Assembly (NCBI RefSeq): GCF_000003605.2
Contig: NW_003131853.1
Location: forward strand, 256,178 to 297,111
DNA length: 40,934 bases
Direction of reading: 5' to 3'
Source of the DNA: Saccoglossus kowalevskii
Lineage: Eukaryota; Hemichordata; Enteropneusta; Harrimaniidae
This document shows positions 10,141-35,398 of this stretch, one piece after another. Position numbers and translations under genes: made by a program. Positions within the stretch are counted from its first letter, which is position 1; each line of letters begins with the position of its first letter. The notes beneath the pieces are model-generated. The model worked only from the letters and a program-made list of their open reading frames with translations, did not search any database and was not told the DNA's origin.

Positions 10141-10142
10141 AG

Positions 10143-10153
10143 AGCGCCCTCTA
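10143..10153. promoter_or_regulatory. CTCF-core-like motif upstream of the TMEM276-like gene
   Basis: AGCGCCCTCTA matches the reverse complement of the core of the bilaterian CTCF consensus (AGCGCC-M-Y-CT-R); the outer bases do not match well. It lies about 225 bp upstream of the chosen ATG. A TATA-like TTATAAA follows near 10164. A single motif match of this length may be chance. Confidence 0.3.
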
Positions 10154-10376
10154 TGTGTTTTTTTTATAAACAACTTAGGGGAGCCCGATTTGAGTGTTTG
10201 TTTGTTTGTTAGAAAATCATCGTATTGATGTTGTTGTGGGAACGGAAGTAAGAACTAAAGTTGTCTATATTTATAGATTTTATTTTCGTCTTCCCTTCTC
10301 CATGATACATAGGAATTCCAAGAACTTGAGACTGGTATTTCTAGTCTTATCTGTGATTGCGTTTAATGAAGTTAAA

Positions 10377-11078
10377 ATGGATGCTAATCGCCAAGCAACT
10401 CCTGGCGGCGAGGTGGACATGCCACCAGTTAGACCAGATCACGAAGATAAGTCGAAGATGACATTGAGCGATACATTGTCTACTAATCAGAGACACACTA
10501 GTGTTGCAGTCTCAGATTTTATTTTAGCAGTTTCTGCATTCAATGCAGCCTTCGCAGTTATTGCTACTTCTAAACTCGGGGCCTTGGGCTTCAGTACTAT
10601 AGGATCAGCAGCTACCCTTGGTGTTGCTCGTTTTGTTTCCTCCACACCTTCTCCACAGCTAGTGGGCTTGCACGGTTTATTTTCGTGGTTGTCTTCAACA
10701 ATTGGGTTATCTTCGCTAGCGGCGGCCTTATACAGGTCTAATGGGCAATACATGATGTCAAGCGCCCACATGGCAGCTTCTTTGGCTTTAACGGCGGTTA
10801 CACGGGTACTCACTCCTGAAATTCAAGAGTTGGCAAGTCAGGGAGTAACAATTTCTGCAGTAATATCCATCCTTACATTCAGCATTTTTCGGTTCAACCC
10901 GTATGGTCTCGTCGGCGCTCTCATTTTCATCTTGTCAGCAGTTATTGGAACTAAAGGCACATTACTGGGAATGAAGAGAGTGGATTGGTTCCACTACGTG
11001 CTTGTGTTTGGTAATGTAGCGTTGATGAAAGCACTTCAACAATATGAACCACTGATCTATTATCGTCCAATAAAATAA
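10377..11078 (+). CDS. TMEM276: TMEM276-like multi-pass membrane protein, single exon
   Basis: 233 aa from ATG 10377, whose context AAAATGG (A at -3, G at +4) is strong. The first 40 residues are hydrophilic and acidic. About six or seven hydrophobic segments follow, near residues 43-63, 67-84, 94-118, 127-145, 153-171, 176-196 and 204-220. The family call is from memory of human TMEM276. The first membrane segment shares the pattern S..xLxV....AA......S...AGF, and a later one shares F..N.YG..G, followed by a K..D...AL tail. Human TMEM276 is a short multi-pass protein of unknown function encoded beside ZFTRAF1, and the ZFTRAF1 gene is also the neighbour here. The frame stays open upstream to a non-ATG codon at 10194. 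An in-frame ATG at 10302 would add 25 residues that look signal-like, but its context is weak (T at -3). No intron is seen in the coding part; 5' UTR exons may exist. It converges on ZFTRAF1. A local alternative is an unrelated multi-pass protein with chance similarity. Confidence 0.75.
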   Translation: MDANRQATPGGEVDMPPVRPDHEDKSKMTLSDTLSTNQRHTSVAVSDFILAVSAFNAAFAVIATSKLGALGFSTIGSAATLGVARFVSSTPSPQLVGLHGLFSWLSSTIGLSSLAAALYRSNGQYMMSSAHMAASLALTAVTRVLTPEIQELASQGVTISAVISILTFSIFRFNPYGLVGALIFILSAVIGTKGTLLGMKRVDWFHYVLVFGNVALMKALQQYEPLIYYRPIK

Positions 11079-11419
11079 CCCCCTAACCCTAACACTCCAG
11101 CCTCCTCTGAATGTTAAATGTATATACATAGATAACTAGAGTATCCTGAAGAGGACATATACTTTTAAATTAGAGAAGGGGCAAAGTTAGGTTTATGTTA
11201 TGGATGAGGAGCCTCTAAAGAATGAAATTTACTGGGAAAAGTACCTGATGATGGGATGATTGTTTACTACTGCACATACAAGAATACACCAGATATTGCG
11301 AATGTACAGTGTTTCTTCAGTTAGGGAGTAACTTTCAAGCTTCTGACCATGCTGCATCAGGTTGGTGGAATTTAAACTAATGGAGGAGGTAATTTGTCTT
11401 CAAGTGTAAGCATACAGGA

Positions 11420-11425
11420 AATAAA
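11420..11425 (+). terminator. Candidate polyadenylation signal of the TMEM276-like gene
   Basis: AATAAA lies about 340 nt after the stop codon on the same strand. It is a reasonable candidate, though such hexamers are frequent in AT-rich DNA. Confidence 0.4.
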
Positions 11426-12540
11426 TAGTGATGTTCTGCGTTAATGGATGAACAAAAATTACATTGCTATCATAAACATGACAGATACAGTAATGTGTAA
11501 CTGATGCATTTGTATTTATGTTTTAATAATTTAGACTTTCATATTGACTGAGTTTGTGATATACATGTAGAAAACCTATAGAACAGATATAATTAAAATA
11601 ATTATTTTGATATCACGATAAATTGTTAATTTAAATGAATGAGAGCTCTGGTTTAATTATTCATACACCTGATCTTAATTATTAATATCATAAGGAAGCA
11701 TTCTGGTGTGCTGAAGGTATGTGGAAGACAAGGTGGAATGATATTGTTAAAAGTCAATAGATTTATGCAGCAACACAGCCCAACTGAACTGAACTGCACT
11801 CAAAAGATATTCTCCCTCTCCTGATGAATGTCATTTTATATCTGATGGTGTTTTTCCCAATCAGATTTAAAAGGTTACCAAATGAGATACATCACATTAG
11901 CTCTAATGCGCTTACATAGATGACAGAAGTGTGTCCATAATCAATATTTGAATGATCCAGAGTACAGTTAATTTATGTGTGCTGCTAATAGAGAAAATAC
12001 AGTACCTGACAATTGTTATCTGCATTTTGTCACTATAGAGGAAATCTATAGCATACTAACGGAAGGAACAACTTGTGCTCGTTGACTCGCCCCCGAATCT
12101 TGGGTTTACCTATTATCAAAATGTTATTATACATGTATTAATACAAATATCAGGGATTATATTCCATATTCATAGAGTCGAATAATCACATATAGAAAAC
12201 CATGTAGTTTTTATCCATCCTCAATTTTTATTCATTACTCAAGGTAAATGGCTCACAATAGATGATCAGAACAGACTATTTGTGGGTTAATATAAATATT
12301 CCTTTTAAGTATCCAGGTTTACATTTGACTTAATGTACCATGAACTCCAGGAAATGTGCTGGGTTAATATGAACCATTGATGGTGCGCATCGTGTACGAA
12401 CATGAATGAGCCTGTGGCATTACTGGTGTAATCAAACAACATATCATACACACACACACACTTGAAATTCACAAAGCATCAATTCGTTGACGTTTACGCT
12501 ATGGTTCTATTGTTTGTCGCCATTCACAAAACCCAAACAA
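11426..12540. other. Intergenic AT-rich DNA, no gene recognised
   Basis: No exon or bounded element is visible. A short CA run lies near 12449-12462. Confidence 0.5.
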
Positions 12541-13520
12541 TCAAGAAAGCTTAGAAAAAAATAAGAAAGCTTAGAAAGATCTGTGTGCTGAGAGTATTGG
12601 AGGAATATTAAAAATTAATTCAAAATTTAAGAAAATTTCAAATAAAAAAGCAATAATATTTGTCTACTATTTAAAAACAATGTGATGCACATTATTGAAA
12701 TTTGATTGTACATTTGTGGTTTGCAGTCTTATTTATTCCAGAGCACCTCTACCACAAGTTGAATCTGATTTTTTAAGATATCAAAAATTGGGTAATAATC
12801 TATAGATATTTCAATGTACACGTTTTCAACATTAAACTAATCACGTCTGTGGATTACCCCAGAGCATCTATATCTATGAAGTTTCAATGAAATGTGATGA
12901 CCATGCATATTAAACAATTAGTATTTCAGTCCTTAGCATTGTTCCCAGGCACTTGTATACCCAGTCATATTAAATGCAATAATTGGTTTTTGATATATAG
13001 GTAGAAAATTGGGGAATTATTATGCATAGATTGCAACCCAAAACTAATTATAGGTGTATATTGTTAGAAGTATCATTATAATGTGATGATTAATTCTTAA
13101 GAAAGTTTAGAAAGAACTCAGTGCACTGAAGGTTTTGGAGGCATAAAGTAGGTACAAATAGTGTAGTGTATTTACTATACAGCAATTAAAAATATAACTG
13201 CAAGCACTGATCAAGGTGGTTTCAAGTAGCTATAGTTTAACAATTATATGAATATTGATATTTTGGTCTGCAACAGTACTTAAGATATTACAGTTATGCA
13301 TATTATTGAGGTCACATGACCATATACAGTCATCTGAAACATTAGTCATTAACCACATTGATCTCAACCAAATACTAATCAGGTTTGCACATTATCCCAA
13401 ACAATCTTTTTAATTAATATTAATGGCTTTCAACCCCAAACTAATGCATTTTCCTAGAGTATCTATGTACGAAATGTCATTCAAATGTAATTAGTACTTG
13501 AGATATCAGTGGAAAAGCTG
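12541..13520. repeat. Dispersed element built from diverged subrepeats
   Basis: The phrase AGAAAGCTTAGAAAG followed by GTGCTGAGAGTATTGGAG occurs at about 12543-12602, in diverged form at 13098-13142, and again at 40261-40303. A second module, AAACTAAT... then AGAGCATCTATGT... then AAGTTTCA-TGAAATGTGAT, recurs at about 12835 and 13438, with partial copies near 13042 and 13370, and twice at 40386-40573. The modules are ordered the same way in both places, so this is a dispersed repeat with internal tandem units. Superfamily and exact ends are unknown. Confidence 0.6.
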
Positions 13521-13790
13521 AAAATGGACTAATCATTATGGGAATTAAGTAATTATATATTCATTACTATGCAAAACCCCAAGAAATTATATTGAAGCAC
13601 ACAATATATAGTGAAACTATTGGTCACTAAAATTTATATCGTAGTGTTTACAAACTAAATGAAATAACTGTTTGTATAGCCTCCTTATACACAAATAATT
13701 GTATGCTTGAATATACTGTCAAAGCAGTACAACTCTGAAGGCTGTAAATTTTAAAAATAAAATGGCCACTATTTGGCCATCTTGAATTGG

Positions 13791-14009
13791 ATCATCAATT
13801 GAAATGAATGTACATAATGAAGATAAGATGTGTGATATATGTGTAAAATTTGAACATTATTAGGTCATAAGTAGTGTAAAATCTGTATTAGAAACCGCGG
13901 CTTCTATTAAAATGGTACAATGCAACAGAGGGGATGCGGCTTCTAATAGAGCATCTACACATATGAGAAATGATGAATTTTTGGTTCTCAATTATTCAAA
14001 AAAAATGGG
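13791..14009. repeat. 219-bp direct repeat, left copy, ending at the gap
   Basis: Identical base for base, as far as I can read, to 14443-14661. It ends exactly where the run of N begins. It contains the first 136 bp of the 180-bp MITE (from 13874). The identity and the abutting gap suggest an unmerged contig overlap rather than biology. Confidence 0.9.
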
Positions 14010-14059
14010 NNNNNNNNNNNNNNNNNNNNNNNNNNNNNNNNNNNNNNNNNNNNNNNNNN
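14010..14059. other. Scaffold gap of 50 N
   Basis: Exactly 50 undetermined bases, a round number typical of a placeholder gap of unknown true size. Confidence 0.99.
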
Positions 14060-14450
14060 CATTTTGTACACGAATAAGAGGTTTTATCTTAGTTACAGGG
14101 AGACCAGACAATAATGAATTACAGCTGTCTAAGCGAGAAGATATGAATGCATGTACCAACTTTTCAGTATCAGATTGGGATAATGATTTACGAATACGAT
14201 TAATATTTCTTAGATGGGAATATCCAGATCTACAAATAGTAGAAATGTGTGTTTCCATAGATAGCTGCGAATCAAACAAGACACCTAAGTTTCTAGCACT
14301 TGACGAAGCACTAACCAATTCTTCACCAATTGCGATACTAGACAAAGGACACGAGTCTTGTGAGAATCTCCGAGACGACATGCACACAAATTCAGTTTTC
14401 GACACATTCAAAAGTAGGAAATTACAAGACATCCAATCGCTAATCATCAA
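14060..14450 (-). mobile_element. LINE fragment: non-LTR reverse transcriptase C-terminal part, CR1/Jockey type
   Basis: The minus strand translates without interruption for about 130 residues with the hallmarks of the RT tail of CR1/Jockey-clade LINEs. In order these are W-M-S-x-N-F-L-L-L-N-x-x-K-T-E (near 14430-14390), A-R-N-L-G-V-L-F-D, then L-S-M-E-T-H-I, then H-L-R-N-I-x-R-I-R, then L-V-H-A-F-I-S-S-R-L-D-x-C-N-S-L-L-x-G-L-P, ending in R-V-Q-N at the gap. The catalytic core and endonuclease are absent, so the copy is partial. It stops at the gap on one side and at the right 219-bp repeat on the other, so its placement here may be an assembly product. Being intact over its length, it looks fairly young. 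Confidence 0.85.
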
Positions 14451-14661
14451 TTGAAATGAATGTACATAATGAAGATAAGATGTGTGATATATGTGTAAAA
14501 TTTGAACATTATTAGGTCATAAGTAGTGTAAAATCTGTATTAGAAACCGCGGCTTCTATTAAAATGGTACAATGCAACAGAGGGGATGCGGCTTCTAATA
14601 GAGCATCTACACATATGAGAAATGATGAATTTTTGGTTCTCAATTATTCAAAAAAAATGGG
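14443..14661. repeat. 219-bp direct repeat, right copy
   Basis: The second copy of 13791-14009. Here the sequence runs on into the complete 180-bp MITE (14526-14705), so this is likely the true locus and the left copy a redundant contig end. Confidence 0.9.
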
Positions 14662-14705
14662 TGCGACTTCTATTAGGGATGCGGCTTCTAATACAGATTT
14701 TACGG
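14526..14705. mobile_element. 180-bp MITE with TA target duplication (copy B)
   Basis: TA at 14524-14525 and 14706-14707 bound the element. The left end GTGTAAAATCTGTATTAGAA pairs with the reverse complement of the right end, CCGTAAAATCTGTATTAGAA, giving inverted repeats of about 22 bp. TA duplication suggests a non-autonomous Tc1/mariner-type element. The interior repeats the module GCGGCTTCTATTA or GCGGCTTCTAATA several times, and the left part has a near-palindrome around CCGCGG. Another complete copy of the same 180-bp length lies at 39396-39575, about 93% identical (12 differences counted). A cut-off copy starts at 13874. Confidence 0.85.
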
Positions 14706-14707
14706 TA

Positions 14708-15399
14708 GTCATTTATCAAATTAACGATTCTTCTTGTTTCTCTCATTTAATATTAAATGTACAGTATTAATTAATTAATTTGCGACCCCTTACAGAATGA
14801 GATAAAAATAGTGCAACAATTATTTCTCAGCAAATTTCAGGATACTCTCACAATTTTGGTGAAAAATACTTTTCAAAATATGCTGGGGAAAATGTATTCA
14901 TACTACATGAGAACTAGACTGATTGTTATGTAATTATCACACTGGTGAATATCTTACTTCATGAACATATAAAATGAATAAATACCAGAGAATGTATTAA
15001 TACTTGTATAATAGCATTTTATACCTTAAGTAGTACATGTTCTATATTAATCCAAAGGTTCTTTTTTGGAATAGTAACATTAATCTTATGGTCCCTTAAC
15101 GAATATGACAGGAATTGCATAACAGTTTTTATACTACTTTAATAACAATTTAGCTAAGCACAATTTTGGTGGGGAAAAATATACAAGCCATGATTTTGGC
15201 AGGAAAAATATTATCTACTTTTGGTGCCAAAAATGATTGATATCACTGTAAGGAAAACAATATATCTGGTTACTATGCTCTTTAAGTATCAGATCTTAGA
15301 GAGTGTAGTACTGACATCTTGTTCTTGTAATCACTAGTTAAAATGTCTGCACTTATTTCAGCCCAATTTTACTTGCATCTCAAAAATTATAAATGATTT
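14708..15399. other. Intergenic DNA, nothing recognised
   Basis: AT-rich with no exon-like frame. Phrases such as CACAATTTTGGTG recur loosely near 14850 and 15160, but I could not bound an element. Confidence 0.5.
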
Positions 15400-15403
15400 T
15401 TAA

Positions 15404-15554
15404 AGCGGGGGAGTCATCACCTGAGCATGCATCAGATGGCATAGCATGTCATTGTTTACAAACGTCCACCCATGAGACTTTGTGTTTTTAGCGCGTGTTG
15501 TTATTGTACTTGGGGCTCAATTCCTGCATATGCGCAGGTGGCACCCCTCCCGCT
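15404..15554. mobile_element. 151-bp MITE flanked by TTAA
   Basis: TTAA at 15400-15403 and 15555-15558 flank imperfect inverted ends. The left end starts AGCGGGGGAGTCATCACCTG; the right end, reverse complemented, starts AGCGGGAGGGGTGCCACCTG. TTAA duplication is typical of piggyBac and Kolobok-type elements. The interior is too short to code. It is clearly GC-richer than its surroundings. Confidence 0.7.
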
Positions 15555-15558
15555 TTAA

Positions 15559-16990
15559 GTTATTGCAACCACAAGAAACAATGATTTTAGACAAAACGAC
15601 CAAGGACAGATTTTTCAACCTCATAAACCTCACTTTCATCTAATGATACAGGCAAGGTAAAAAAAAATGAAAGTGCTTATTATTTTACTTAATTTGAAGC
15701 TAAGCTACTCTTATCAGTATTCAATTATACATATGAATATATTTGTGTTGGTTTCATGTTTATAAGCTAATGAGGCACACTTTCATCAATATCTCCAAAA
15801 ACACTAAAGCCAGCTATATCAAGTGATTATGCATTAGTTGACATGTTGTGGTAGTGTTAACGACAACACAGACAGACATTGTAACCACTACACCTAGCCA
15901 CTTCAAGGTAATAAAATTTTTGTCTATAACACATACACATGGGTATATTGAAAGGCTTGCATTGTGTGCTTAGACATGGAAGCCAAAAAAACACCCGGGA
16001 AACATTTGTTATTATTTATATTTATTGTGCACAAATCAAACAGCAGCAATTCACCAAAATCTATTCAAATAAATGCAGCATGCATATGAGAACACTGTTC
16101 AAGATACTAAACAGAAGACTATCAGTAATACGCACTTCTGAATAAGAAGAAAATGCAGATACACTATGCAATCATGTTGCTGGTAAAAATGATAATTCCC
16201 CAATGATTTTCAGGGAGTTCTTGAGCAGAAATGAGCCGCACCAAGCAGATCTGGATGTATATAGCCTAATGCTATATTGTATATATCTGGCAACTAAACT
16301 TATATCAAATGGGTGGGGAGAAAAGCTACCATGTGTGATAACAATACAATATTCCTTGTTATCTTTTAGCTATAAAATGTTAGCTCTAACTTGCTGTGCA
16401 CAGCAACACTTTCAAAATATAATTAAAACAATTTATATAAATAACAATAATTTGTTAAATATAACACTATTATTTAAAAATATGATACTGCAGCATAGAA
16501 ACAATACAATGTTAAAACAATCGGTGCTAGATCTAAAAACCAAATGTAAAAGTAAAACGTTTGAAGTAACAACAAAAACAATACTGGCCACTGCTCTTTT
16601 GAACTTATTTACATATTTAAAGTTGACTAAATTTGCTGGACATTGTAATTTGTCCAAGAAACATTCTTGTATACTACATTGATACTAAGTGCAGCAATTT
16701 ACTGGTACTAGTTTGCTTCTACTATCATCTTCAGCTTTGTAAATGCATGTAGATAATGCTAAATGTTTTGTGATCTTTTTGAATGAGCTTCTATGCTCCA
16801 TCGTGTGGCACAATACCCCATGATTTGCCTCTTGCATATATAGCAATCATGTCACAGTAGCTAAACATGCAAAAACTAAATTTTTGGGGGTATATAATAA
16901 ATAATGACCCTGTTTCAATTGAAGCTCAGCTCATGACTGATAAGCATTTTGTTGATGTCTTACAATAATATCATGTAATACTACAAAACA
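15559..16990. other. Intergenic DNA, no supported gene
   Basis: Frames at 15939-16145 and 16203-16682 are open but have AT-driven composition and no motif I can recognise. I do not call them genes. Confidence 0.5.
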
Positions 16991-17247
16991 GAAACTAGCA
17001 ATTTATCAGTACACACTTTTCAGATACATAGACAACATTGCTCCTAACTAACACTTTACATAAAACAGATACAGGTTGTTGTTGTAAATGTTGTTTCTGA
17101 AGAATAAACTGCAATTTATCAGTACAGTCCTTCACACACTTTTCAGATACATAGACAACATTTCTTCTTACTTACACTTTACATAAAACAGATACAGGTT
17201 GTTGTTGTAAATGTTGTTTCTGAAGAATAAACTGCAACATATCAGTA
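16991..17247. repeat. Tandem duplication with 123-bp period
   Basis: CACACTTTTCAGATACATAG starts at 17012 and again at 17135. The following ACTTTACATAAAACAGATAC and TTGTTGTTGTAAATG segments are repeated in step, and a third partial start (GCAACATATCAGTA) follows. Two nearly identical copies imply a recent local duplication. Confidence 0.9.
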
Positions 17248-17624
17248 GCTTGGTGGTGTGGGTCTTTTGAACTACTGGGTACACTGTCTAATTCAATGAA
17301 CATCCATGCTTTTTTTTCTAAAACAAACATGGTAGTCAATTAATTGACTATTGTTTTTCGCTCAATGCTGAAACATCAAAATAATGTTAATGTGAATACG
17401 ATGCAAAGTTTACACACAGTTCTTGCACCAATTCAGAAGAAAATAACAGTGTCCAAGTAATGTAAAAATCCTTGGCAAAGGACTGAAGAGCTGGTGTCTA
17501 TATCCAATATTAAGGTAGGATATAATTAAAAAAAAAATGGATTTTTTTACAAAGTAAAACAATACATTTTTAAAAAAGATGTACTAAATCATGTACATGT
17601 ATTTGGCATAATGAAGTAACAATA

Positions 17625-18025
17625 AAGTCAAACCTGTGTATATAAACCACCAAAGGACTTCATTAAATTATTCTTTATAGATAGGTGGTATATGGAGGTT
17701 GAATTACCTTTTTTATGGATGGCAAGCTCGTACATTTGACAATATTTGTTCAGGAATAATGAGCTGGTACTGTTCAACAGAAACATTTCTATTTGAGTTG
17801 ATCAAAATAAAAAAAGTTTGATTTGGGGAAATTGAAAATTATTTTTTAAACAGAATGTTAATTATTACTTTGGTCTCTAAACACAAATGAATCTGCAAAA
17901 GTATTCATGAATGAGTGGTCACATGGCACAGGTTGTTCATACATTATGCCTTACGACTACCAAAAAAATATCACTATAGGCAGGTAGTCTTTATATAAAG
18001 GTGGTCACTAACACAGGTTTGACTG
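17625..18025. mobile_element. 401-bp MITE-like element with TA flanks
   Basis: Left end AAGTCAAACCTGTGTATATA and right end, reverse complemented, CAGTCAAACCTGTGTTAGTG form an inverted repeat of about 26 bp ending in ACCACC. TA dinucleotides flank at 17623-17624 and 18026-18027. CAGTCAAACC ends with TA duplication fit a Tc1/mariner-type non-autonomous element. No coding frame is visible inside. Confidence 0.7.
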
Positions 18026-18027
18026 TA

Positions 18028-19277
18028 GTCTCTTGTGATAGTGTACAAATCAAGTGTATCTATGCTGAATGCTGAGAATAAAGCACTACAAATTAACACA
18101 CCCAAATAATGACTAAAAAATTATTTGAAAGCAGGTAGACAACTCTTGCATATATAAAGCTGATGGTGCAAAACTATTTAATTGGTTCCTTTTCTCAACA
18201 GATCTCCAAAATGTACATTGATTTCTTATATTAGAACCTTATATGTCATAACTCAAAAATGGCGATTGGTTCAACAATATTATAATATTCATGGATAATA
18301 GTATGTAATCATGTTATTACACATAAGCCTCAAATATAAGAAATACAATATTGCTTGTTATTCAGTTTTGATGAAATTAATAAAACATAACATCTGAGGG
18401 TTTTTGACAAACTATACATAGTGTATCCAAATTAGACAGATACAATAAACAATGAAATCTGTGTAAACTGAATATCACATAAACCAGGAATATTTTCTAG
18501 TCCCTTCTTGATAGGACTCACTATAGTCAGTTATACAAGAGACCAAATATTGTTCACCCTGACCAAATTGATATACAAGAACAACTGATTTGTACAAATG
18601 AATGACAAATCTGTAAACACTTTTTCTAGTCTTTTTGGTGTTCGGTTGAGACAAGTTTTACTCATATAGAATGTTAAAGCACAAACACTACATGGGTTGT
18701 CCCCCCCCCCAAAAAAAAAAAAAATTGAAGCAAAATTTACTTTGGTCAATACAATTGAACCCCTTCATTACATTTCAATACATGCATACAATTAACACGT
18801 CTAGGCACTACTGAGTTAATGTAAATAGTTGTTGATAGAAAGAGTACTATATATTATGTACTTCAAGGGCATGATAAAGAACAATAAACATGTGTGAACC
18901 ACACAAAGCATATTTCAATGTGCTTCAAAATGAACCCTCTACAAGCATGTTGTACAGAATACATATATTTTGATTCTAGTATCCCATAACAATAAAAGAG
19001 GCTAAAACCAGGGTATGATGAGATTTGCTAAATGCATGTTACTTTGTGGCAGATTCATCATGAACATGGTAATGTCAGATATATATGACATCAATATAGA
19101 TTTCATACCATGATACGAGACACAAAATAACATGGTGACAGTTGTCTACAATACTTTTCTTCAATGTTAGTTTTTCAACAATGTAAAAGAAAGACTTTTC
19201 CCTGAATGGCAGACATTGTGTCTTATATATTGTCATAGCCATTAATATATATCTTAGTATCATATATAATTCAATGG
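18028..19277. other. Intergenic DNA downstream of ZFTRAF1
   Basis: AT-rich with no exon recognised. A C10 run followed by A14 lies at 18701-18724. Part of this may be ZFTRAF1 3' UTR if a distal poly(A) site is used. Confidence 0.45.
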
Positions 19278-19283
19278 TTTTAA
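19278..19283 (-). terminator. Candidate ATTAAA poly(A) signal for ZFTRAF1
   Basis: The minus strand reads ATTAAA about 95 nt after the stop codon. I found no canonical AATAAA on this strand close by, so this variant hexamer is the nearest candidate. Confidence 0.35.
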
Positions 19284-19375
19284 TGCATGTTACATGTCAG
19301 TAATATATTAAATACTTTAAAAATAGAAACACACCACCAAATAATGCCTTTTTCAGTTTTATAAGAACATGGTAA

Positions 19376-19773
19376 TTATTTTTGAATTTGAAACATGATA
19401 ATTCTGCAGTTGATAGTCTTTGAAGCCAACAACTTGTTACATTCCCCAAGGGTGAACAGTGGAAGTAGATTGTAATCACTCTCATACTTGTCACTGGTGA
19501 ATTCATAGTTGTAGATAACAGGCTTGACTTTCATTTCACCGAATGGACCCTTCAGAACAATGAAGCGGACATCCAGGTTACAGTTAGATCCCACACGACT
19601 CTTCAATACCAGCTGGTAGCTGATCGTACGTTGGTAGCTCTGGGATGGATCACGGTGGTTATCATTGACCTGGCCTTTCACAACCCACTGTTGATCCAAT
19701 GCTGAGAAACGCGAAGTTTCGTAATACACACGTGGAATGAAATCATCTGTACGGTATGGTCTCAGTTGTAAAT
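19376..19773 (-). CDS. ZFTRAF1: ZFTRAF1 coding exon 4 (last)
   Basis: The acceptor TTTTACAG precedes AT, completing D220, then [11 protein letters not shown]. The exon encodes the conserved C-terminal half of the protein, and the TAA after FQIQK is at 19378-19376. It is 398 nt. Confidence 0.96.
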
Positions 19774-22700
19774 CTGTAAAACAGAAGCATTTATCAGACA
19801 ATACCTTACGTTTTATTGTTAACAATTACAGCAACATTTGACTTTTCTACTACCGGTACTTTCATTTACTACCATAAATACTCTAATTTAGGCACCGCTT
19901 TTTCAACATATCATTCTTTTCTGCTGTGAAATGTGTTAAATGCTTCTTCAAAGTTCAGTTTGTTTTTCAAAATTTACTAATTTCCCAACAAAATCAGAGC
20001 CAAAAGATCATTCAATTTCTTTTGTGTTGCAATTGCCATTCAATGAGGTCGCTGAACCCTCATTAACATTTAAATAACTATGGTAATTCAAATACGTTGA
20101 CACCATCCAGAATTCTGATTGGTTAATAAATGGTTTGACCTATCAGGTCAAAGAACACAGTTTCAGGTCAACTCATGTATAGAAAAAACATGGTGGATGT
20201 CAAATTGCATCCAGCATTTGCTTGCGACTGAAAACATTCACTTATGAAACTAAGTTGAATTTTACTTGCATTTCACAACCAACCAACCAACCAACAAATT
20301 GTTTTTTTGTACGATATTATACTTACGACTGAGTAATAATTGCAATACCTCAAATTATTCACTTGTGAAACACAGCATGACTGGATTGCGCTACCTTGCG
20401 GATCATTTGCTACTAAGCAATGGATTTGATTTGTTTTTATTTGAAATCTTACATTACCGACAAAATTAAAACCCATGCATAGTATTTTTTTGTTATGTGA
20501 AAATAATAATTTTGTGATGCCGAATTAAGGCCTTTTACTCTTCCCTGAGACCTAAATTAGAGTATTTACGGTAAAACATTTAATCTTCTATTTGCTGCAT
20601 AATACCTACTTGTAATCTTTTCACTGTTGATATACATATCATACATACCTTGTTGATTCTTTGTGGTCATATCAAAAAATCATACTAATTCATGGTTGCA
20701 GCATATGCTTAAAGCACTACATGTATACTTTTACACTTAATAATATTGTCATTTTAAGTTTCATTCCAAAATAACAATCCCTGCACGTACTAGTCAGGTT
20801 CAATTATCAAGTCCCAAAACAATATTATTATGCAACGCAATTTGTATTGGTATTTTTTTTTTCTGATGGAACGAAAACGCTCAAAATTAGCTGTTCTAAA
20901 CTTCCACTAAATCACAATGAATATAGAAATATGAAATCATTAAATAGTTAGAAGTGTAACACAGGTAATAAATGTGAACTGTGAATGCAATAATTTCTTC
21001 AATTGTTTCAGATGACAAATTCAAATGAGACACCAGGACAATTATATATTCCAGAAATGCAGCAGATCTGTACATTATGTGTAAAGATGTGGTGTTCTCC
21101 ACAGGTGTATTTTAATGGGATCTCCATCCATTCACATGACTATCTTTTTCCCCAAGAAATCAAAGCTGTCATATTAACTATATACAAATTAGGAATTAGA
21201 TCCCTTATCTAGCACTACAGTTTTGTGGAGAACATGGTTCTAATTATCAATATTTGTAGTTTTTTTAAAGATTACAAATATAAAATAGTTTAGATTCACA
21301 TAGTGATAATCTGTTATTTTACACAGTGACCACCATGCTTACAACAATCAATAGAAATATAATCAATACCCCAAATTCAGAATATCTTAAAATATCCAGA
21401 ACCCAGCATGAGAAAAAAGGTTAAAAGCGTCTTGGGAGTGACTTCCTAGCTCATCGTTTTCAAGTTTCTAAAACAAGGGCCACAGAATTATAAATTTACA
21501 GAAGGCGGGCAGGGTATGGTAAGTATGATTTCACTATGTACCGTAAATCTGAACTATTTTACTATGTTAAACCATAATTACCATATACAAATTGACAGAG
21601 AGATATAGATTAAAAGTTTTAGGTGGTCAAGTACATAGGCACACCAAGGAGGTGGGTAATCTGTTGATTCTGAAACCCTGGTAGAAAGGGGCATGCAACC
21701 TAATACCATACAATTAATTAATTATAGCCGATATGGTACTCACTGTAATGACATTGGTGCAGCTCTTCACCTTAGTGGAGAAACTTAGAGATGCTTACTT
21801 TCACTTGTACGACAGAACTATGCCCACAACACAAAGTGAAAAGTGATTTCTGGGCGTGAGGTTTTCTGATACAGAAAAAATTAGTCCTCACTATATATAG
21901 GTAAGCCTGGGCTTATTAGCTGGTATAAGTTTTTCTCTTTCCTGTGCTACATGTGAGTCTCTCTTGCACTGTCCACACACCCACCGACTAGCAACCAGTT
22001 GGCGGAAGCAGTTCATACCTTTTGCCTCCTGCAATATGTATGTTAATGGAAGGCTAGGGAATTAGCCAGTGCTCTGACCTAGCTGGCACACTAGAGTAGG
22101 GGATGCACAGCACCGTTTCCCCACCACAAAACTGACAAAACCCTTTGATCTCTGTGTTCTATAATAATAAGAGTACAGGGCTCTGACTGGAAAAACTAAA
22201 CAGTAATGCCTGTGGGAAAAGGAAAGCCAATCCAAGTTAAATCCTGCCCGTTTTTTCTCTCACTATTTTGCTTTTCCAATGGCTGGAAAGTTGGAAAATG
22301 AGAAAGTGAAAGTGTCACTGAATTCATTTCGAAGGAGGCTTACATAATATGTCTGGCTCCTGTAAACAGCCCCTTAAGAGGGGGTATATGGATCAGCTTT
22401 GATACCAGAACTGACAAGAGTAGTGAAACTATGGCACTACTGTTAACTAGAACTTCTTCTGAATCTCACCCAGGAAGTGGACTAGTACTCTCTTAAGGGC
22501 CAACCTCAGTACAGGAACTCTTGCTTCCAATAATGCCACTCTCCCCTAAAGTTTATGACATGGGCTTCCATCCTACCTTAAGGCGTCTGTTACCAGATTT
22601 ATGAATGGAGATGATAATTTGTTCTGCTATCCCTGCTGTGTAAGTAAGTCCATCCCCTACAGGAGGGTATTTTGACTAGTGGAGGTCCATGGTGTGTATG

Positions 22701-25700: not shown

Positions 25701-28700
25701 AATGGTTCACCCCCTGGCCTTTATATACATGTAGTACATTTAACTGGATTGTTTAAAATCCCTCCTGTGTTAAGGAGTAGAAGAAAGCAGAAGAAGGGTA
25801 ATTGGTCACTAAGTTCAACTTTATTGATCATCATAGAGTAGTACATGTAATATAGTGCTGTGGAAATGTGAGTAGTAACTTTCTCAGAGAACCCCATCTC
25901 CACATACTAAAATGTCCAGCTGCCTTCGCAAGTACCAGTAATAGCATCTTGTGGTAGGATAATACATTCCAATCTTCACGCATCATATACAATGTTTTGT
26001 ACATGAATATGTTATCCCTGTACTGAAATTGTTGCATCAAAGAACACCTTCTTCTGGTAGACCTCAACCTCCATGAATTGTAATGGCCAGCATAATAACA
26101 AGCATCACTGTGGACAGTCTGGATATGTAACTTTCACACAATGTTATTTTCTAGCTAGCTGGCATTCTCCGAAAATACAGGAATATGGCTTTGATCTGAT
26201 GTGTTGTGACAATAAACCACACCCTTCTGCAGATAATGCAATCTCTTGTTACATCATGATTTTGTTCCAAAGTAACTTGATATTTTTACTGGATGCACAT
26301 TCGTTGCCGGAAAGTTAACAATCTACTCTTGAGTGATGTAAGCATTGCATGTTTATTGCTACAGTAACTGTACCAGTGAGGTGCAAATCACAGATTGATT
26401 GTGTACTGTCTACAACTACATAATGTTACTAGTCTCTTTACTGCCATTCTTGCGAGGATCAAATCAGTATGAGGACACCCTAAATACCATCATTTTATTA
26501 CTTTTTTACAATACAGCTGTGCTGCAAGCAATGTTGCTTTCAGGGAGGCAGGGTCATCATCAGATTTAGATTGCAGCATGATATTGGTGGTCAGGTGTAT
26601 CAATAAAATTCATGGTCACAGAAAATGTCACAGGTTTTCATCTATTCAGACATTCTTGTTGTCTTGCAGTATAATGCAACGCTTAGTCTGGTTAGGAAAA
26701 TCTTCTTTTCTAAGCAGTAATTCTAACCAGCTCCAGTCCATTCCCTGGCTCCTTGAAGTCTTGACAACCATTTGCATTGAAGAGCTTTACCGTTCAGTAA
26801 AGATTGAGTAAAATGTATCATAATGGCACAGTAAACACCACAAAAAAATGTTTGAGTCAGGTTCATTATGTTGACAATTAAGAGTAAGGCCATGCATGAA
26901 ACAGTGAAGGGCTGAAGGGTGAACCATTACCTTTTAATAAGATTTAACTTTTAACACTAATTTATGAACTATGACTGAAGCATAGTTACCAGTCCACTAT
27001 TTCTCTAATGAATAATTTGTTCTAGATTGTTCACATTTCAACTCATGATTAAAATCTATTCTGGCAACCAGGGAAAAGATAACTGTGTTCTGATGAGACT
27101 AGTTAATTCTGGAACTGTCATCTCTACTAAAGTTACATGAAGCTTAAAATTTGGTGAATACCCAAAATCAGTTCTTAAAATGAATACTGGCATTGTTTCT
27201 ACTTTAACTACCAAACTGAAGAGGTGATCAATTTTAATTGCCTGTGTCTCATTTGATTTTGCTTTTTTGATGAGCAAACATTTTGCCATTATTCTCTCTC
27301 TCACACTCATACAAACAAACCATTAGGACATAACCTGAATCCAGAGTACAAGCCAAGGTTGTAATTTTCAACAAAAACAAAGAAGAGATCTCACTACAAT
27401 ATTAACCATTTAATGTTATCTTCTCAAAAGACAGGAGGTTGAATATATTGCTGTACACTTTCATCTCATCATCACGAATTTGGTCTATGGATTGGAGGGC
27501 CTCCAGGATTTCAGCCCCGCTCTTTTGAGGGCGACAGCACTGCTGCTCATGTTCCTGTAGTTCATGATATGGTCCGCACCAGGAGCAGCCAATGCGCTGA
27601 TACTTGCAATTTGTCAACCTAGTTTGTATTTGCAGGTATAGTTAACAATATACAGGATTGTATGGATTAGACCAGATAGCATTTCTAACATGTGTATTGT
27701 ATCAGAAATCGAACATCATATAGAAATTACAATTCAAAAAATGAAAGATATAAAAAAGTATCACGATATACAGGAAGTAACAACAAAATGTCCAGATACA
27801 CTTGGCAGGAACTCCAGCTAATTGCTACCCAACTGCTTGGGAATATACCAGTATTACTGAAAACAGTGGACACCATTCAATCCCAACAAGAACATACATG
27901 TTAAGGAACAAACAATATTAACATTCAAAGCACTGTCTTCTATACAGAAAAAGAACAATTTGATTCAGCATCTTTCAATAATTATTTACAACTAGCATTA
28001 AATGTCAATATATATTTGTACTGACCACGAAAGATCTTAATAGCCGGACTAATTCATGCTCTGAATTTCTTCACATAAATTTCTTTTATATTTTGTATTT
28101 CACTTGACTATCTTTTGACTATCTATCATGGTTTCATTCTTTATATAAATATCTTGCGTCAAGGGCATGACACAACATCTTTTTATGGACATATACAAAT
28201 TAGTAAAATGATTTCCTATAAATGTAGCAGGTGCACTGATCAAATGTATCCACATCAATTTCATCAGTTCTTGATCAGATTGTGTATTTTATATAGGCCT
28301 AAAAAAATTGGCTTCCATGAGTGTAGCCATTAAAGAATACGATATAAGCAAACTCAGTTTATGTTGCAATTGACATTTTGTGACTTGGTCAAGGTGTCTC
28401 AGAGAATGGAAAACGAACACAAAGCGTTAAAACTGAATGGCTATGGTCAGCACATTTAAATAACATTAAATGATATGCATAAAGTACTGCTTCCTATTAT
28501 GCTCTTACCATGCTTTGAATACAATCGATCTAGGTGTGTCTTAAAAGCTGGAAAGCTTTGTTTATTTTAATGTTTTTGCCATATTGGATCAAAATTATAT
28601 GTAGTTGTGTTTGTACCAGACAACGCATCTTTGCCAGTTTGATATTTACTTAAATCAACTTCGAAACAAAATTTGCCAAAGCATGTGTGAAAAAATCAAC

Positions 28701-31700
28701 CAAATGACTACATAATTAATTAAATCTTCATTTTGAACTTCATCTGCCAGGAAGGAGTTGTGAAAAGGACAAGTGCCTTCTGAAAAAACTTAAAAACTAC
28801 AAGCAATGAAAAAAGAAGATGGAAAATTATTGGGCCTCTTTTGGTTATATGGTATATATCATTTCAGTTAGGAAGAGTGATCCATATTATTTAATCAAGA
28901 ATGAATATAAATGCATTTTTCTTTTAATTCCTGGTTCAACCAGATCTTCAGTGGTCAGTATTTTTTCCAAATTAAGTCTCGGTTAAAACCCTCCACTATC
29001 AAAAAACTGTGTGATTTTGCATATTAGGCATGCAATTGTAGTTTACTAACTAAATAGCTAATTTATTTACGGATATACCGGTACACTATCTAAACCTACC
29101 TAAATCACAAGAATTTTGAATCTACACACAAAAGACAGGCAACTTATTCTAGTTACTAAATAGCATACCATAAAAAATAGGTTTCATACTTAACACAACC
29201 TGGACATATTTACAGTTTGAGAAGTTTAACAGAACTTCAAAAGTGATGAATAATTTGCCTGAAATACTTTAGAGCCAATACACATTTTTTGAATATAGCC
29301 AGTCCTAAGGGACACATATCCAATTGAGCATGATGCTGCAGATCTTCATGCTACTAATTAATTTCCTAAAAATTTATTGCTATTATTCAGGTTGAAAAAA
29401 AATTATTGGGTAGGTTAGATGAGCTGCAAGTATGTTTGGTTTGTATTATTAGGTGTAAAAATTTTTTTTATTGTTTTATAAACTGAAGTCATACAACCTG
29501 GACACATTACAAGTTTGAGAGAGTCTGACTTAGCAAATCCTATGCAACCCAAATCGTTTTCTACAGACTAAAGCCATACAAGAAAACCCTAACAACTTTA
29601 ACTTTAATTGAAAATAGCACTTCTCTACTGACAGCATATGTTTTAAGAAAGAATATATGATAATTAAAACAGAGGTACTAGCTACAAGTCAATTACAAAG
29701 TGTGATAGTTAAGAGACATCTTATCACTATGAGGCATTGCCCTTTCTGACTGTTAAAACCAAAGGCAGGAAGCATACTGTAACACCAGGTGAAAGACTAC
29801 TAGATGATATCCTGGCCAGAATAAGGGCTGGAAGGAAACTGTGCAGGAAGGCCAAAAGTTGGCTAAGGAAGTAGGAAAGTCCCCTCAGGGGAACCCCACA
29901 GCTCCCACCCCCAAGAAGGGGTTCACATCAAAAAAGTAGCAAAGCATTTTTTGCAATTTTAGCTGTTAACATTAGTTTTACCCTCAAGGGTGGAAACAGA
30001 GTGGAATTGACCTCCCAAGCACGAGGATCAAACATTCTAGTGGGCTATCTCGACCTGAGTGAGACGAAGAAGGATGCGCCTGCTGATTGCAAAGCAGCTG
30101 ACTTGGCCCTATGCAGGAAAATAGATAGAAACACCTATGACCTGTCTAATTTCAATCACAGGATATAAGATGGGGTCTGGTATCACTGGGGATGTGTGCC
30201 TATGGAGATCTTGCCAACATTGCTTAAAGCGGTCTCATGTACATTATGGTTGCTAGGGAGCCACCTGCCTTGGTCTTGGACTTGATGGATTGTGCCAGTC
30301 CACAACTTGTGTTGGAGGGCCAGCTAGTGTCAGTCTAATCCTATAGTGCTACATCAGTCCAAGTCCTGGTACAGAATCAATTCTCTGTCCCTTGGGAGGA
30401 AGGGGGAGAGATGATTCAAAAGTGATTTAACAAACTATGAGGGTAAGCACCTTCAGTGACATGCCTATGGATCTGGCAGCATGATCCTAGGGTTGTTATT
30501 CCAAGGAGTGGCAAGCAAGCCTATTTGGTGCTTTAGCCTGGCAGTGAAGAACACATGATTTTGTGGGTTAGAAGGCGGTAAAAGCCACAACTTTTACACT
30601 GGACCAGTTGGTTCTAGTGGCAGGTGAACATGTCTAGAGACAGCTTGCCATTGACTGAACTAGTGGGTTCATTATGTGAAGCAGTCCCTCAGGCCTTGAG
30701 AATGCTACCAGTAAAATGGAGCGATGTTATGATGTTCTTACTAACAAGTCATTCAGCATCACGTCATCACACTCCTCTTGATGCAAGAAGCATGGTCGCT
30801 TTGTGTTTGACTGGGTGGGAAAACCCAGCAGCATGTATGAACAGAGCAAAGGCCCTGCCAAATCTACATGACCCACACAAACAATACAAACTAAAACTCC
30901 TTGTGATGAACACTGTAACAAATTTACTTGCAATGCCATGAGATGGAATGCTTGCGATCACTAGTATCGTTGTCAATAAACCCTCCTCTAGAAAGACTAA
31001 CAGCAACACATATGTGACTATAGAAAGGAAAACAGCAAATAGTAATATCATTATAGGCTTCACCAGGTGTGATCATGCCAATGTCTGCAGATGCAATGGT
31101 GATTCTACTGTAAGCAGTGATGGAAGAGACTTACATGGCAATAACTGCCTTACCTCTCATGGAAATCTGAGCATTGCCTAGACTGTTTCCTGAATGAAGT
31201 GAAAGTCATTGAAGAAAACCTGTAAAAATTCACCCTGATTGAGAAAGTAGTCTATTAAGTAGTATTGAAATTAATGGCTGGGGAAACAGAATTGCAATCT
31301 GGGTAGGCATCAGAAACTAGGTAACAAGACCTGCGACGAGCTTGTGACAATATATGTTGTAAATTGTGAGCCTGGATTGCTGACTTAAACTTGTGGCTGA
31401 TGACAGTCAAGTCAAAACCAGATGGGTATTTGGTCTCTGATCTTGAGCGGACACTGCACTGGAAGGATCAGAGTAAACCAGGTATAACAATTTAGCATTA
31501 GGCTTGCTAGTTTCAGCGTTACTTTCTCGGAGAAGGGTGAACGCTTTAAATAGTTGACTGTCGAGAACCCAGCTACCTACAACCAAACAGACACCAATCC
31601 TCCTACTACAAACCACATACAGGTCAGAAATCACACTGTTGACAACGATGTTGAGCAGGGACTGTAGTGGTAGGCAGGTTGGCTAGTTGTCCTAAAAAGG

Positions 31701-32440
31701 CAAGACAATTTCCCAAAAAAATGACAATCCGTAATAGTCATTTTTCATGGACTGACTTACTGAATCAAAAATAACTGGCCCTCGTTAATTTAAAACTAAA
31801 TTACCATTGGTGATTTGAGTTGGAAATTAACCAGTAGCCTAAGGAGCCTCAACCCCATGCCATTGGATATGGAGCAGTCCCCCTAAAACCTAACAAATTA
31901 AAAAAATCATCTGAAAGTATTTCTGGCCATCCATCATTTTGGACATAAAGTGTTTCAAACTAGTAGTGTGTCCAGGTTGTAAAACTTACTCAATATATTT
32001 AATCAGTTAATAATGTATTATAATTTATGTAGACAAAATAAACATTTTTATTTATAGCTAAAATGCTGTAAAGCATACAAAAACATTCAAGACCATATGG
32101 TAGTACCATGTAGAATTTTGTTTACACTAAACTTGGTAAATCATTATGTACTGTAGCATTTGTTGTGTGCAGGTTTTTACTGAAACTGGCAAAACCTGAA
32201 TATTGGTAATGCATATGCCAAAAACAAAGATATGCAGTAGAAGTGCCTTTAAATACTAAGCATATAAATAGCATATTAGTATTGGTAACAGTATGTATCT
32301 ATGATTTTATTTATGACTGCTAATTTATTTTATAGAAAAGATACAAAATCCACACCATCAGGTAATTTTATTCTGGCATTGATAAAAAATATGCTCATTA
32401 TGACACATTCAATTAAAGGTGGACATCATAAATTTGTATG

Positions 32441-32475
<35 letters not shown>

Positions 32476-35398
32476 TACTACTAGTAAAGTTTATTTTTAC
32501 TATTTAAATTATTATAATACCATCACATAATTTTAATTTTCCACTGGATATGAATGCTGCAATGTTATTCATAAGTGTTCAATATTTATCTGTCAAATTT
32601 AATTTTTCTGTATAAAAAGTAAAATCAGCCTTATTAACAGTACATAACAAACACAATATCACTTTTTTACAAGAATTTAGTAAATTCAGCAGAAACTGCC
32701 AGTTTAATTTGTATATCTCAATGGCTGTTAATAAAAATAATAGATAATGTCTGTACCTGATTATTAAATGTTGGTAATAAAATAAGTTGTTACCATTTGC
32801 CTATCTCAAAAAAACATATTGCTGCACTTTGATTGTTTTTTGCTTAATATGTAGTTTCTCAAAAAAATAATAATCTGCTTAGAATGTAGCCTCCTGTGCA
32901 CAAAGAAAGCATGTCAAATAAGCTTGCACAATGTGATTGCACTTATTTCTTTCTTTATAAAGACTTCACAACACATGTAGCCTAAATAAAAATTTCACTG
33001 GATAATCTTTCAGTTTGGTTGGAATGCTGCATGTATGAATTCTGTATGTACCTACATCTTGACCCTTGTTTATTTACTCTTCCATAATGAAATAAATGTG
33101 CAAACCATGTAAGGTTGAAAGTCATATCCACATTTAATAAATACTGCAATTCTATTTTATGTTGTAATATAAACATATACAACAGGTGGGGGATAGGATA
33201 TTGTTTCATTCACAGAATTTAATGTATTAATCAATCACACTTTTAGAAATTATTTCTTTTAAATTAAACTGGCAGAATTTCTGTATTTACTACATTTTTA
33301 CTATTATTGAGATTAGTATACATTAACATTGTTTATTCCTTAACACTCACTCATAAAATGACATCAAAGCTATCATTCAATTTATATGAAATGTAAATTG
33401 TGATTGAGTAAGACTCTGAAAAATTAACTTCAATGACACATCAGATATCAGTATTCAAATAATCAACTACAGACTTAACCAAACAGAGGATATCACAATA
33501 ACTTGGTGATGATGCAACTTTTTGAAATATTAACTAGAACTACGTTTGCATTGGAATAATGAGACAATAGGTCAATGGTACCGGTGATGTCGGAGCTGGA
33601 AAACATAGTAAACTATCAAATTAGAATAATTTAATACAAGACTAATACTCTTGAGTATTCTTTTCAGCATACTAAATTCATCACCACTCAAAAAATATTT
33701 ATTTCAGAAGAAACAAACAAAGTTTGTAATAGATGTCATTGAAGGTAAACTGTTTCAGAAACTCCCTCCATCATAAGCTTCAAGATTACTTTGCATTGCC
33801 AAAATGGGGGTTTAATCAACATTATGCTATGTGTGTGTGTAAGTATAATTATATGAATATTTTAGTTGAATATTTACCTATCACTACACTCTTGTCGTTC
33901 ATGAAATTCCAACGTACTTCTTGGTAAGTAATTGTTACAGTATTGACAGGCTGCTGGCAATTCACATACTGCTTTTTCAACAGCTAGGTTACGAGAGCAC
34001 ATACTTTTGCTGATTTCACAGCGACAGTTTGGGCAGGTAGCCTGTTCATTCTTGAGACGTGCATCTGCTAGAAGATGCGTAAAGCACCCAGCACACATTA
34101 AATGTCCATTAGTGCACTGTAATATAACCATTAAAAACAATTAGTTAATCCCGGTTTCTCAGATCATGGGAAGTATTAAAGGTAAAATAGGTGATCTAAA
34201 ATATCTGTGAGTGTAATATATAATAGACTATATGCGAGTAGGACATTTCAGAAAATGTCTTGTTCACAAAATTGGTTGCAAAGCCACTTTTACATAGCCT
34301 GTCAATCACGCAAGTCAAACCAATCAAGAAACCTCAGCAGTGGACTATTATTAAAAATTGATAGCCAAATAATCAGATAAAATCACAAATTGTTACTTTT
34401 GGACAATTATCAATATATCCCGATACAATATTAGTTTACTCATCCAACAGTTGAGTTTAATTTATGCACAACAAGCATGCATAATATGCAGGGAATGAAT
34501 TTTAAGGGCGTGGTCAGCCAGCAGAGCTCTGTGGGTTGGTCACCGGGGACAGCAAGACTTCGACCCTAATCGATTGATCAGACTCTTTCCCTCGGTCGTA
34601 CGGTATTTTGACAAAGTTTTGAATCACAACATTTGTGTACAATTATCGATGTAAAGATAGTGGTTTATCAAACAGTACGATCAGAACGACTGCAAACACC
34701 TAAGCGACAATATTGTTTATATCCTCCCTTGGAATTAGTTTATGAACACTCAGAGTCGTCTGAATGTAAATCGAAAAATATATTTATTTAGTAAGGATGC
34801 ATTTACCTAAATTGAATATTCTAGCTGTCCAATATTACGATGGTTTCGCGTCAAATATTAAATTTCAACTAAATACAAATTACTTCAACTGGCACAATTG
34901 AACCGCAGCTACATTCAGAGGTCAAGCTTTCCCAGGCTTCATCGCCCCTTTACAAGGGCTGTTTTGCAGTCACAGACTGTAGTCGCGGACTCCAGAACTG
35001 CACACAAATCTAACATTTTTTGCGTTGGCCCCACAACGAATTTACTTTTAAAACGTACAGTTAAAAGAAAATCATATAAACAATATAAAAATGTGAATTT
35101 CCGTTCAGAACACACAACGAACTGTTAGTTGGGAGATTTTTTTCTGCGACGCAAAAATTATAATTACGAAATCAAACTACATGATTCGAACCTGGAAAAC
35201 TGTACTCCGCGGCAGATCTAAACAAACGGCACAACAGAGAATTCCATTGAGTCTCTGTTCCAACTTTTCTTCTATTAATGATCTATCGTCTTCCGTCTTC
35301 TGTTTCTTTTTAACGGGTTCAGCCATTTCGAGTTTTTCTTCATTCGATTCGCAAATTTCTGCGACAGTCTCTATCGGTGCGATCGCAACGTCCGCCAT
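19376..35398 (-). CDS. ZFTRAF1: ZFTRAF1 (CYHR1), zinc finger TRAF-type protein, four exons, complete
   Basis: Coding exons 35398-35192, 34116-33878, 27618-27407 and 19773-19376 join in phase (0, 2, 1) to 351 aa plus stop, close to the vertebrate length. Order: a lysine-rich, NLS-like stretch (PVKKKQK, 28-34); a RING-like finger with C56xxC59, C70, H74, C77xxC80 and C97xxC100; TRAF-type zinc finger ligands C126xxC129, H141, C146, C153, C160, H172 and C177; a linker; and a conserved C-terminal half of about 135 residues with [16 protein letters not shown] and a final FQIQK. It matches my memory of human CYHR1 along its whole length ([23 protein letters not shown] and RPYRTDDF are near-identical). 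The mouse protein was reported to bind galectin-3; the RING suggests ubiquitin ligase activity, which is inference. Introns are 1075, 6259 and 7633 bp and full of repeats. The start ATG opens exon 1 just below CRE and CCAAT motifs. Confidence 0.96.
19872..20571. mobile_element. 700-bp non-autonomous DNA transposon in ZFTRAF1 intron 3
   Basis: TA at 19870-19871 and 20572-20573 flank the element. The left end CCATAAATACTCTAATTTAG and the right end, reverse complemented, CCGTAAATACTCTAATTTAG differ at one base in 20. TA duplication with CCGTAAA ends suggests a mariner-type MITE, and its terminal CCGTAAA resembles the 180-bp family. No transposase frame is visible. An (AACC)n run sits near 20278-20296. 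The element ends about 100 bp upstream of the exon 4 acceptor. Confidence 0.85.
20574..21900. other. ZFTRAF1 intron 3, nothing recognised
   Basis: AT-rich intron sequence. A CCGTAAATCTG phrase at 21541 resembles the mariner-type ends seen elsewhere, but no partner end was found. Confidence 0.45.
21901..23960. other. GC-richer island in intron 3, possibly a decayed mobile element
   Basis: Base composition here is visibly richer in G and C than the AT-rich surroundings, and both strands carry several medium-length open stretches in different frames. This is the look of an old coding sequence no longer maintained. I could not match it to a named family and found no terminal repeats, so type and limits are uncertain. 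Confidence 0.4.
23961..27406. other. ZFTRAF1 intron 3, remainder
   Basis: AT-rich intron without recognisable exons or bounded elements. Short frames (25831-26067, 26073-26318, 26578-26811, 27056-27310) have no conserved motif and are probably chance. Confidence 0.45.
27407..27618 (-). CDS. ZFTRAF1: ZFTRAF1 coding exon 3
   Basis: The acceptor ACTAG precedes G, completing R149; it then reads [11 protein letters not shown], aligned to human VTQCKYKRIGC, and on to [11 protein letters not shown]. It is 212 nt and ends with one base of D220 at the donor G|GTTAAT. Confidence 0.95.
27619..29190. other. ZFTRAF1 intron 2, 3' part, nothing recognised
   Basis: AT-rich intron DNA. No exon between ZFTRAF1 exons 2 and 3 is needed, because the phases already agree. 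Confidence 0.5.
29196..31979. mobile_element. Element with inverted terminal repeats and GC-richer core (2.5-2.8 kb)
   Basis: The right end, reverse complemented, reads CAACCTGGACACACTACTAG followed by TTTGA. A matching inverted copy starts at 29494 (CAACCTGGACACATTACAAG, then TTTGAGA), with TA on both outer sides (29492-29493 and 31980-31981). A third, same-orientation end starts at 29196 (CAACCTGGACATATTTACAG, then TTTGAGAAG). Its following 40 bp, with TTCAAAA-TGATG and GAAATACTTT, also resemble the inner right end. The outer left border is therefore either 29494 or 29196. The core, about 29770-31680, is GC-richer than the intron around it and looks like former coding sequence, but I do not recognise a transposase. 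TA flanks favour a cut-and-paste DNA transposon of unknown superfamily. Confidence 0.65.
31982..33877. other. ZFTRAF1 intron 2, 5' part
   Basis: Very AT-rich intron with an (ATT)n microsatellite and no other recognised feature. Confidence 0.5.
32441..32473. repeat. (ATT)n microsatellite
   Basis: About eleven perfect ATT units, followed by a short ACT run. Confidence 0.95.
33878..34116 (-). CDS. ZFTRAF1: ZFTRAF1 coding exon 2
   Basis: The acceptor TATTACAG precedes [12 protein letters not shown]. The exon carries the rest of the RING and the first half of the TRAF-type finger, ending in ECSD plus two bases of R149 at AG|GTAAAT. It is 239 nt, leaving phase 2. Confidence 0.95.
34117..35191. 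other. ZFTRAF1 intron 1, CpG-retaining
   Basis: A 1075-bp intron. From about 34550 to exon 1 it keeps many more CpG dinucleotides than most of the window, as expected next to an active promoter. A weak tRNA-like segment is at 34505-34570. The frame at 34898-35128 has no family resemblance. Confidence 0.5.
34505..34570 (+). repeat. Possible tRNA-derived SINE head
   Basis: TGGTCAGCCAG (34511) and ACTTCGACCCT (34557) resemble the A and B boxes of a RNA polymerase III promoter, and their 46-base spacing fits. The segment does not fold into a convincing tRNA and no second copy was seen in the window, so this is tentative. Confidence 0.25.
35192..35398 (-). CDS. ZFTRAF1: ZFTRAF1 coding exon 1
   Basis: 69 codons from ATG to STVFQ. 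It carries the acidic/lysine-rich head and the first RING cysteines (C56, C59). The donor is CAG|GTTCGA, phase 0. Confidence 0.93.

Follow-up and report, generated by a model that had tools for sequence, protein, structure and literature searches.

Gene content of the locus

The window analysed here is a 40,934-nucleotide stretch of the genome of the hemichordate Saccoglossus kowalevskii (contig NW_003131853.1, positions 256,178 to 297,111), and it carries a ZFTRAF1 gene on the minus strand and a TMEM276-like gene on the plus strand. ZFTRAF1 is complete, with four exons that have GT/AG borders and encode 351 aa between 35398 and 19376. Exon 1 (35192..35398, minus strand) opens with the start codon at 35398 and encodes the start of the RING, exon 2 (33878..34116, minus strand) supplies the remaining RING and the start of the TRAF-type zinc finger, exon 3 (27407..27618, minus strand) covers the zinc finger region, and exon 4 (19376..19773, minus strand) contributes the conserved C-terminal domain and the stop codon. 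All four were placed by their genome matches, together with translation for the outer two exons and with AG/GT borders and Pfam for the inner two. The introns measure 1075, 6259, and 7633 bp.

Comparison with a partial human-type ZFTRAF1 sequence, not taken from a database record, gives 183 identical positions in 306 columns (60%), collinear over the RING, the zinc finger, and the C-terminal domain. In Pfam, Sina_RING matches at 28.7 bits (cut-off 29.3) and zf-TRAF at 24.7 (cut-off 27), and two further C3HC4 RING models match as well; all four matches lie somewhat under the curated cut-off. The gene is single-copy, as the four genome matches at E up to 0.001 (seven candidates scored) are all its own exons. 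A search for resembling solved structures found none at E up to 0.001, and no relatives of ZFTRAF1 were found in genome_contigs. Two viral contigs (1225-1374 and 9236-9385) encode a 48-aa stretch that matches ZFTRAF1 at its C-terminal end (34%), with an E of 6e-4 calculated among candidate stretches only, and this likeness may be chance.

The TMEM276-like gene (10377..11078, plus strand) has a single coding exon for a protein of 233 aa, as indicated by its open reading frame (ORF) and by genome and sequence matches. By-eye hydropathy and a low-confidence structure model place 6-7 hydrophobic segments in this protein. The ATG of the ORF lies exactly at 10377. An in-frame ATG upstream, at 10302, makes the segment 10302..10376 (plus strand) either a possible N-terminal extension, giving a 258-aa version, or 5′ UTR; read by eye, the start context is better at 10377 (AAAATGG) and weaker at 10302.

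The ORF is intact, and its frame is free of stops over 294 codons. In 200 Markov copies of 7101-19300, runs free of stops reach at most 175, and a chance ORF at 10377-11078 is rejected on this comparison. GC content at codon positions 1/2/3 of the ORF is 49/46/40%, and the two flanking stretches have 32-34%. The frame also ranks top in a codon scan of a 241-kb stretch, a rank that is not independent evidence because the scan was partly trained on the same frame. At the level of sequence, the main evidence that the ORF is a gene is its match to TMEM276.

Between the two stop codons lie 8297 bp (11079..19375) of repeats with a 50-N gap at 14010-14059, in which codon scan, Pfam, and Rfam led to no recognised gene. 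Five frames of this interval fall within the best 150 of the codon scan, with a maximum of 8.8 versus 44 for the TMEM276-like ORF. Two open frames of the interval had no match in Pfam; one of them resembles a reverse-transcriptase fragment, by eye only. Rfam has no match at gathering score anywhere in the window, and Pfam searches of seven window pieces return the RING and zinc-finger matches of ZFTRAF1 and, elsewhere, just two chance matches (0.037 and 0.058). An earlier note on this DNA had described a single-exon multi-pass gene as the next recognised gene after ZFTRAF1, and this description holds, no other gene being recognised in the 8.3 kb between the stops. A small unrecognised gene could still lie there.

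Several repeats surround the genes. A 219-bp stretch occurs twice at 13791-14661, 100% identical, with the first copy ending at the 50 Ns (14010-14059); the pattern, inside repeat DNA, suggests that assembly duplicated the stretch at a scaffold gap. At 2352-6795 a 34-bp unit is repeated in tandem about 131 times with 82% matches, and the TMEM276-like start lies about 3.6 kb downstream of the end of this array; a second array with a 66/33-bp unit occupies 6826-7098. A dispersed repeat is present in two nearby copies, at 36665-36978 and 39660-39974, that are 94-97% identical.

A 17,037-bp mitochondrial contig was also observed, with COX1 on the strand opposite to ND1 and COX2. These three genes hold 35 ATA codons (10, 15, and 10 in COX1, ND1, and COX2), and those judged stand at conserved isoleucines, for example in NVIVTAHAF and IMIGGFGNW of COX1. 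They also contain 11 AAA codons, including conserved lysines (GERKALGY in ND1), and two AGA codons, one of them at a conserved serine; AGG is absent. The mitochondrion of S. kowalevskii is described, in the portion of the source that treats its code, as having AUA for Ile, AAA for Lys, AGA for Ser, no AGG, and an inverted COX1 (PMC3121625), a description that the mitochondrial code and inverted COX1 observed here fit. Part of another account treats ATA as Ile as an ambulacrarian character and AAA as Asn as an echinoderm one (PMC2697986).

Identity of the TMEM276-like protein

The reference for identification was one human-type TMEM276 sequence, composed with the window protein already known and taken from no database record or profile. 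Aligned by blastp, it is identical to the ORF in 54 of 195 columns (28%, 46.2 bits); a second alignment gives 49 identities in 181 columns, and phmmer scores the pair at 34.9 bits. The match is colinear and spans residues 10-192 of the 192 in the human-type protein. The ORF also scores highest (141) of the 593 open frames in 241 kb that have at least 60 aa and no N, the runner-up scoring 50. In the whole genome of 572 Mb and 4830 contigs, the human-type TMEM276 has one match at E up to 10, which is this ORF (E 2.4e-6). These results bear out the earlier claim of a resemblance to TMEM276, for which a profile comparison had been proposed; it was run with the one human-type sequence in place of a profile, and this sequence matches the ORF. 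Of the motifs named in support of that claim, F..N.YG..G is found, as FRFNPYGLVG, and AGF is not: the window protein reads GALGF after the first helix, where the human-type sequence has AAGF.

The genome search also supports the reference sequence itself, since a faulty or made-up one would hardly single out the ORF at 10377-11078 in 572 Mb. Curated collections do not return the family: the 258-aa version has no match in Pfam, a single chance match in NCBIfam (taurine dioxygenase, 0.031), and a single chance match in the PDB (0.17). Human-type TMEM276 itself matches only SdpI (0.0075) and Pilin_N (0.86) in Pfam, both under cut-off, and since the human sequence also has no match above cut-off, Pfam seems to hold no TMEM276 model. 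No solved structure resembles human-type TMEM276 at E up to 1. As to a bacterial origin or transfer, a search that reaches only close relatives found none of the ORF in genome_contigs or viral_contigs.

Likeness to TMEM276 could come from helix composition, in which case the ORF would belong to some other multi-pass membrane family and its adjacency to ZFTRAF1 would be coincidental. The identity of only 28%, the reference not taken from a database, and the lack of a curated family match are compatible with this, and an AlphaFold2 model of the 233-aa protein as a single sequence had a mean pLDDT of 43.5, too poor for fold comparison. However, the local score of the TMEM276 match is reached by 0 of 2000 shuffles in each of three shuffle types (6000 in all, z 13.5-17.6), including shuffling inside 10-residue windows, which keeps the hydropathy pattern (z 13.5). 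The colinearity over nearly the whole human-type protein and the position of the ORF as the sole TMEM276-matching frame in the genome also speak against another family, which is very unlikely. Smoothed hydropathy of the ORF and human-type TMEM276 correlates at 0.68 across the alignment, a value given without a control.

The single coding exon would also suit a retrocopy of a TMEM276 gene inserted beside ZFTRAF1, and adjacency would then say nothing about ancestral order. But no parent copy, and no other TMEM276-like place, was found in the genome. Furthermore, 11079-13000 contains no A-run of 8 or more, and the longest word common to the upstream and downstream flanks is 12 nt and AT-rich. A retrocopy therefore appears highly improbable.

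Both a lack of TMEM276 similarity and a true orthologue elsewhere in the genome, either of which would count against the identification, were looked for, and neither appeared. With the ORF itself as query, no second genomic copy was found at E up to 0.001. Genome searches score only first-look candidates (one for the TMEM276 query, two for the ORF, seven for ZFTRAF1), and a very divergent second TMEM276 copy could escape them. On the sequence comparisons, the 233-aa ORF is very likely an orthologue of TMEM276.

Gene order and neighbourhood

The TMEM276-like gene and ZFTRAF1 are separate genes that converge, as the earlier note had stated, with the first on the plus strand at 10377-11078, the second on the minus strand at 35398-19376, and the start codons about 25 kb apart. 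Because they converge with 8.3 kb between their stops, a simple readthrough transcript joining the two is impossible here. A shared promoter is likewise excluded here by the convergent orientation and the distance between the start codons.

To the left of the TMEM276-like gene, the next recognised gene is a Piezo gene on the minus strand (NW_003131853.1, approximately 176-234 kb), for which Pfam searches of four pieces give Piezo_cap at 67.5 bits, THU9/anchor at 39.8, TM1-24 at 23.3 (below cut-off), and one piece without a match. About 60 kb to the right of ZFTRAF1 lies an ATXN1-like gene with an AXH domain (55.4 bits; NW_003131853.1 351711-353078, plus strand). Beyond the ATXN1-like gene come a RING gene, which by eye looks TRIM-like, and also an LDL-receptor-A gene; of the nine pieces scanned there, seven had no match.

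In human, we take TMEM276 and ZFTRAF1 (CYHR1) to be neighbours at 8q24.3, where the name of a TMEM276-ZFTRAF1 readthrough also exists, and presumably none of the Piezo, ATXN1-like, RING, and LDL-receptor-A neighbours is a human 8q24.3 gene. CYHR1 is placed at 8q24.3 in the literature, and the four flanking genes are all missing from a list in the same source that takes in ten genes on each side of HSF1, reaches TONSL, and stops before CYHR1 (PMC5740759). Because both the other recognised neighbours and the orientation differ from the human locus as given above, what is common to human and Saccoglossus is a bare, inverted pair. The changed orientation also argues against conservation of the head-to-tail or readthrough arrangement.

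Age of the linkage

An old linkage of TMEM276 and ZFTRAF1 is likely. The window would hold single-copy orthologues of both genes, adjacent and convergent. As the pair is adjacent in a hemichordate and, by the gene order taken for human, there too, its linkage would predate the split between chordates and ambulacrarians, and since the orientation differs between Saccoglossus and human, at least one local inversion after that split would have altered it. This combination of orthology, ancestral linkage, and later inversion is held with considerable confidence. The linkage had previously been proposed to date from early bilaterians; the dating compares two lineages, one hemichordate genome and the order taken for human, which carry the linkage to the chordate-ambulacrarian ancestor and not necessarily further.

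Survival of such a pair is not to be assumed, because a figure legend in Lin et al. (2024) reports that no microsynteny is apparent when two other hemichordates, Ptychodera and Schizocardium, are compared (PMC11175523). The same strong local scrambling lends some weight to the idea that adjacency arose separately in human and in Saccoglossus, through chance rearrangement within one ancestral chromosome, so that orthology would be right and old adjacency wrong. The orientation unlike that taken for human, the sharing of the pair alone (with Piezo and ATXN1-like as nearest recognised neighbours), and a selection bias, the pair having been noticed through being linked, all point the same way. Yet two genes that share a chromosome of about 1000 genes, a round figure, would be adjacent by chance in only about 2 in 1000 cases, and independent adjacency is thus judged unlikely. 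Linkage inherited from the chordate-ambulacrarian ancestor is the preferred reading.

Function and reasons for linkage

ZFTRAF1 most likely encodes a putative ubiquitin ligase of the RING type whose zinc finger is SINA/TRAF-like, and TMEM276 a putative small multi-pass membrane protein. Why they would have stayed together is a matter of judgement. Passive survival of an old neighbourhood is the most likely reason, favoured by slightly better than even expectation. Cis-regulatory constraint comes second as a possible though less probable cause, for example through elements of one gene within the long ZFTRAF1 introns, and selection on joint function, the least likely of the three, is doubtful. 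The shared regulation or joint function suggested in the earlier note is conjectural. A tentative proposal is that the pair was functionally constrained before the chordate-ambulacrarian split, either because elements in the ZFTRAF1 introns regulate TMEM276 or because both proteins act together, and that the mammalian readthrough would be a late by-product. For microsynteny in general, the choice between functional constraint and mere low recombination is left undecided in the relevant part of one survey (PMC8851819).

Place in the literature

Among the papers listed in searches of the main literature, none was found on TMEM276-ZFTRAF1 linkage, and TMEM276 itself is almost absent from the literature searched, appearing once as TMEM276B. 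Presumably TMEM276 was long hidden within the annotation of CYHR1, and the pair has probably escaped surveys that relied on older annotation of the human genome. The available portions of three papers do not treat the evolution of TMEM276 (PMC10376189, PMC5503638, PMC13290811). One of these portions has a TRAF zinc-finger heading under which both TMEM276 and ZFTRAF1 are given as zinc-binding (PMC10376189), a listing that may reflect confusion via the readthrough locus. A clear invertebrate relative suggests that TMEM276 is an old separate gene and not a mammalian isoform, and the Saccoglossus protein provides a divergent sequence useful for finding the family. The locus adds one more conserved gene pair, one partner of which is almost unstudied, and the retained neighbourhood of a RING protein offers a cheap lead to TMEM276 function.

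Comparison with known systems

ZFTRAF1 resembles the SINA/SIAH and TRAF RING-zinc-finger proteins in its Sina_RING and zf-TRAF matches, but differs from them in that its matches are all below the curated cut-offs; we take it to be a family of its own. As a pair, TMEM276 and ZFTRAF1 resemble conserved metazoan microsyntenic pairs and genomic regulatory blocks, in which two unrelated genes are kept adjacent for very long periods. Neither gene, however, is known to be a developmental regulator. The portion of the microsynteny survey that sets out its blocks requires at least three orthologues in each, whereas TMEM276/ZFTRAF1 is a bare pair (PMC8851819). The closest comparison is the human TMEM276/ZFTRAF1 locus, where both genes are likewise taken to be adjacent and the human-type proteins are 28% and 60% identical to those of Saccoglossus. 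The hemichordate locus differs from it in the convergent orientation, with 8.3 kb between the stops, and in its flanking genes, which are Piezo and ATXN1-like.
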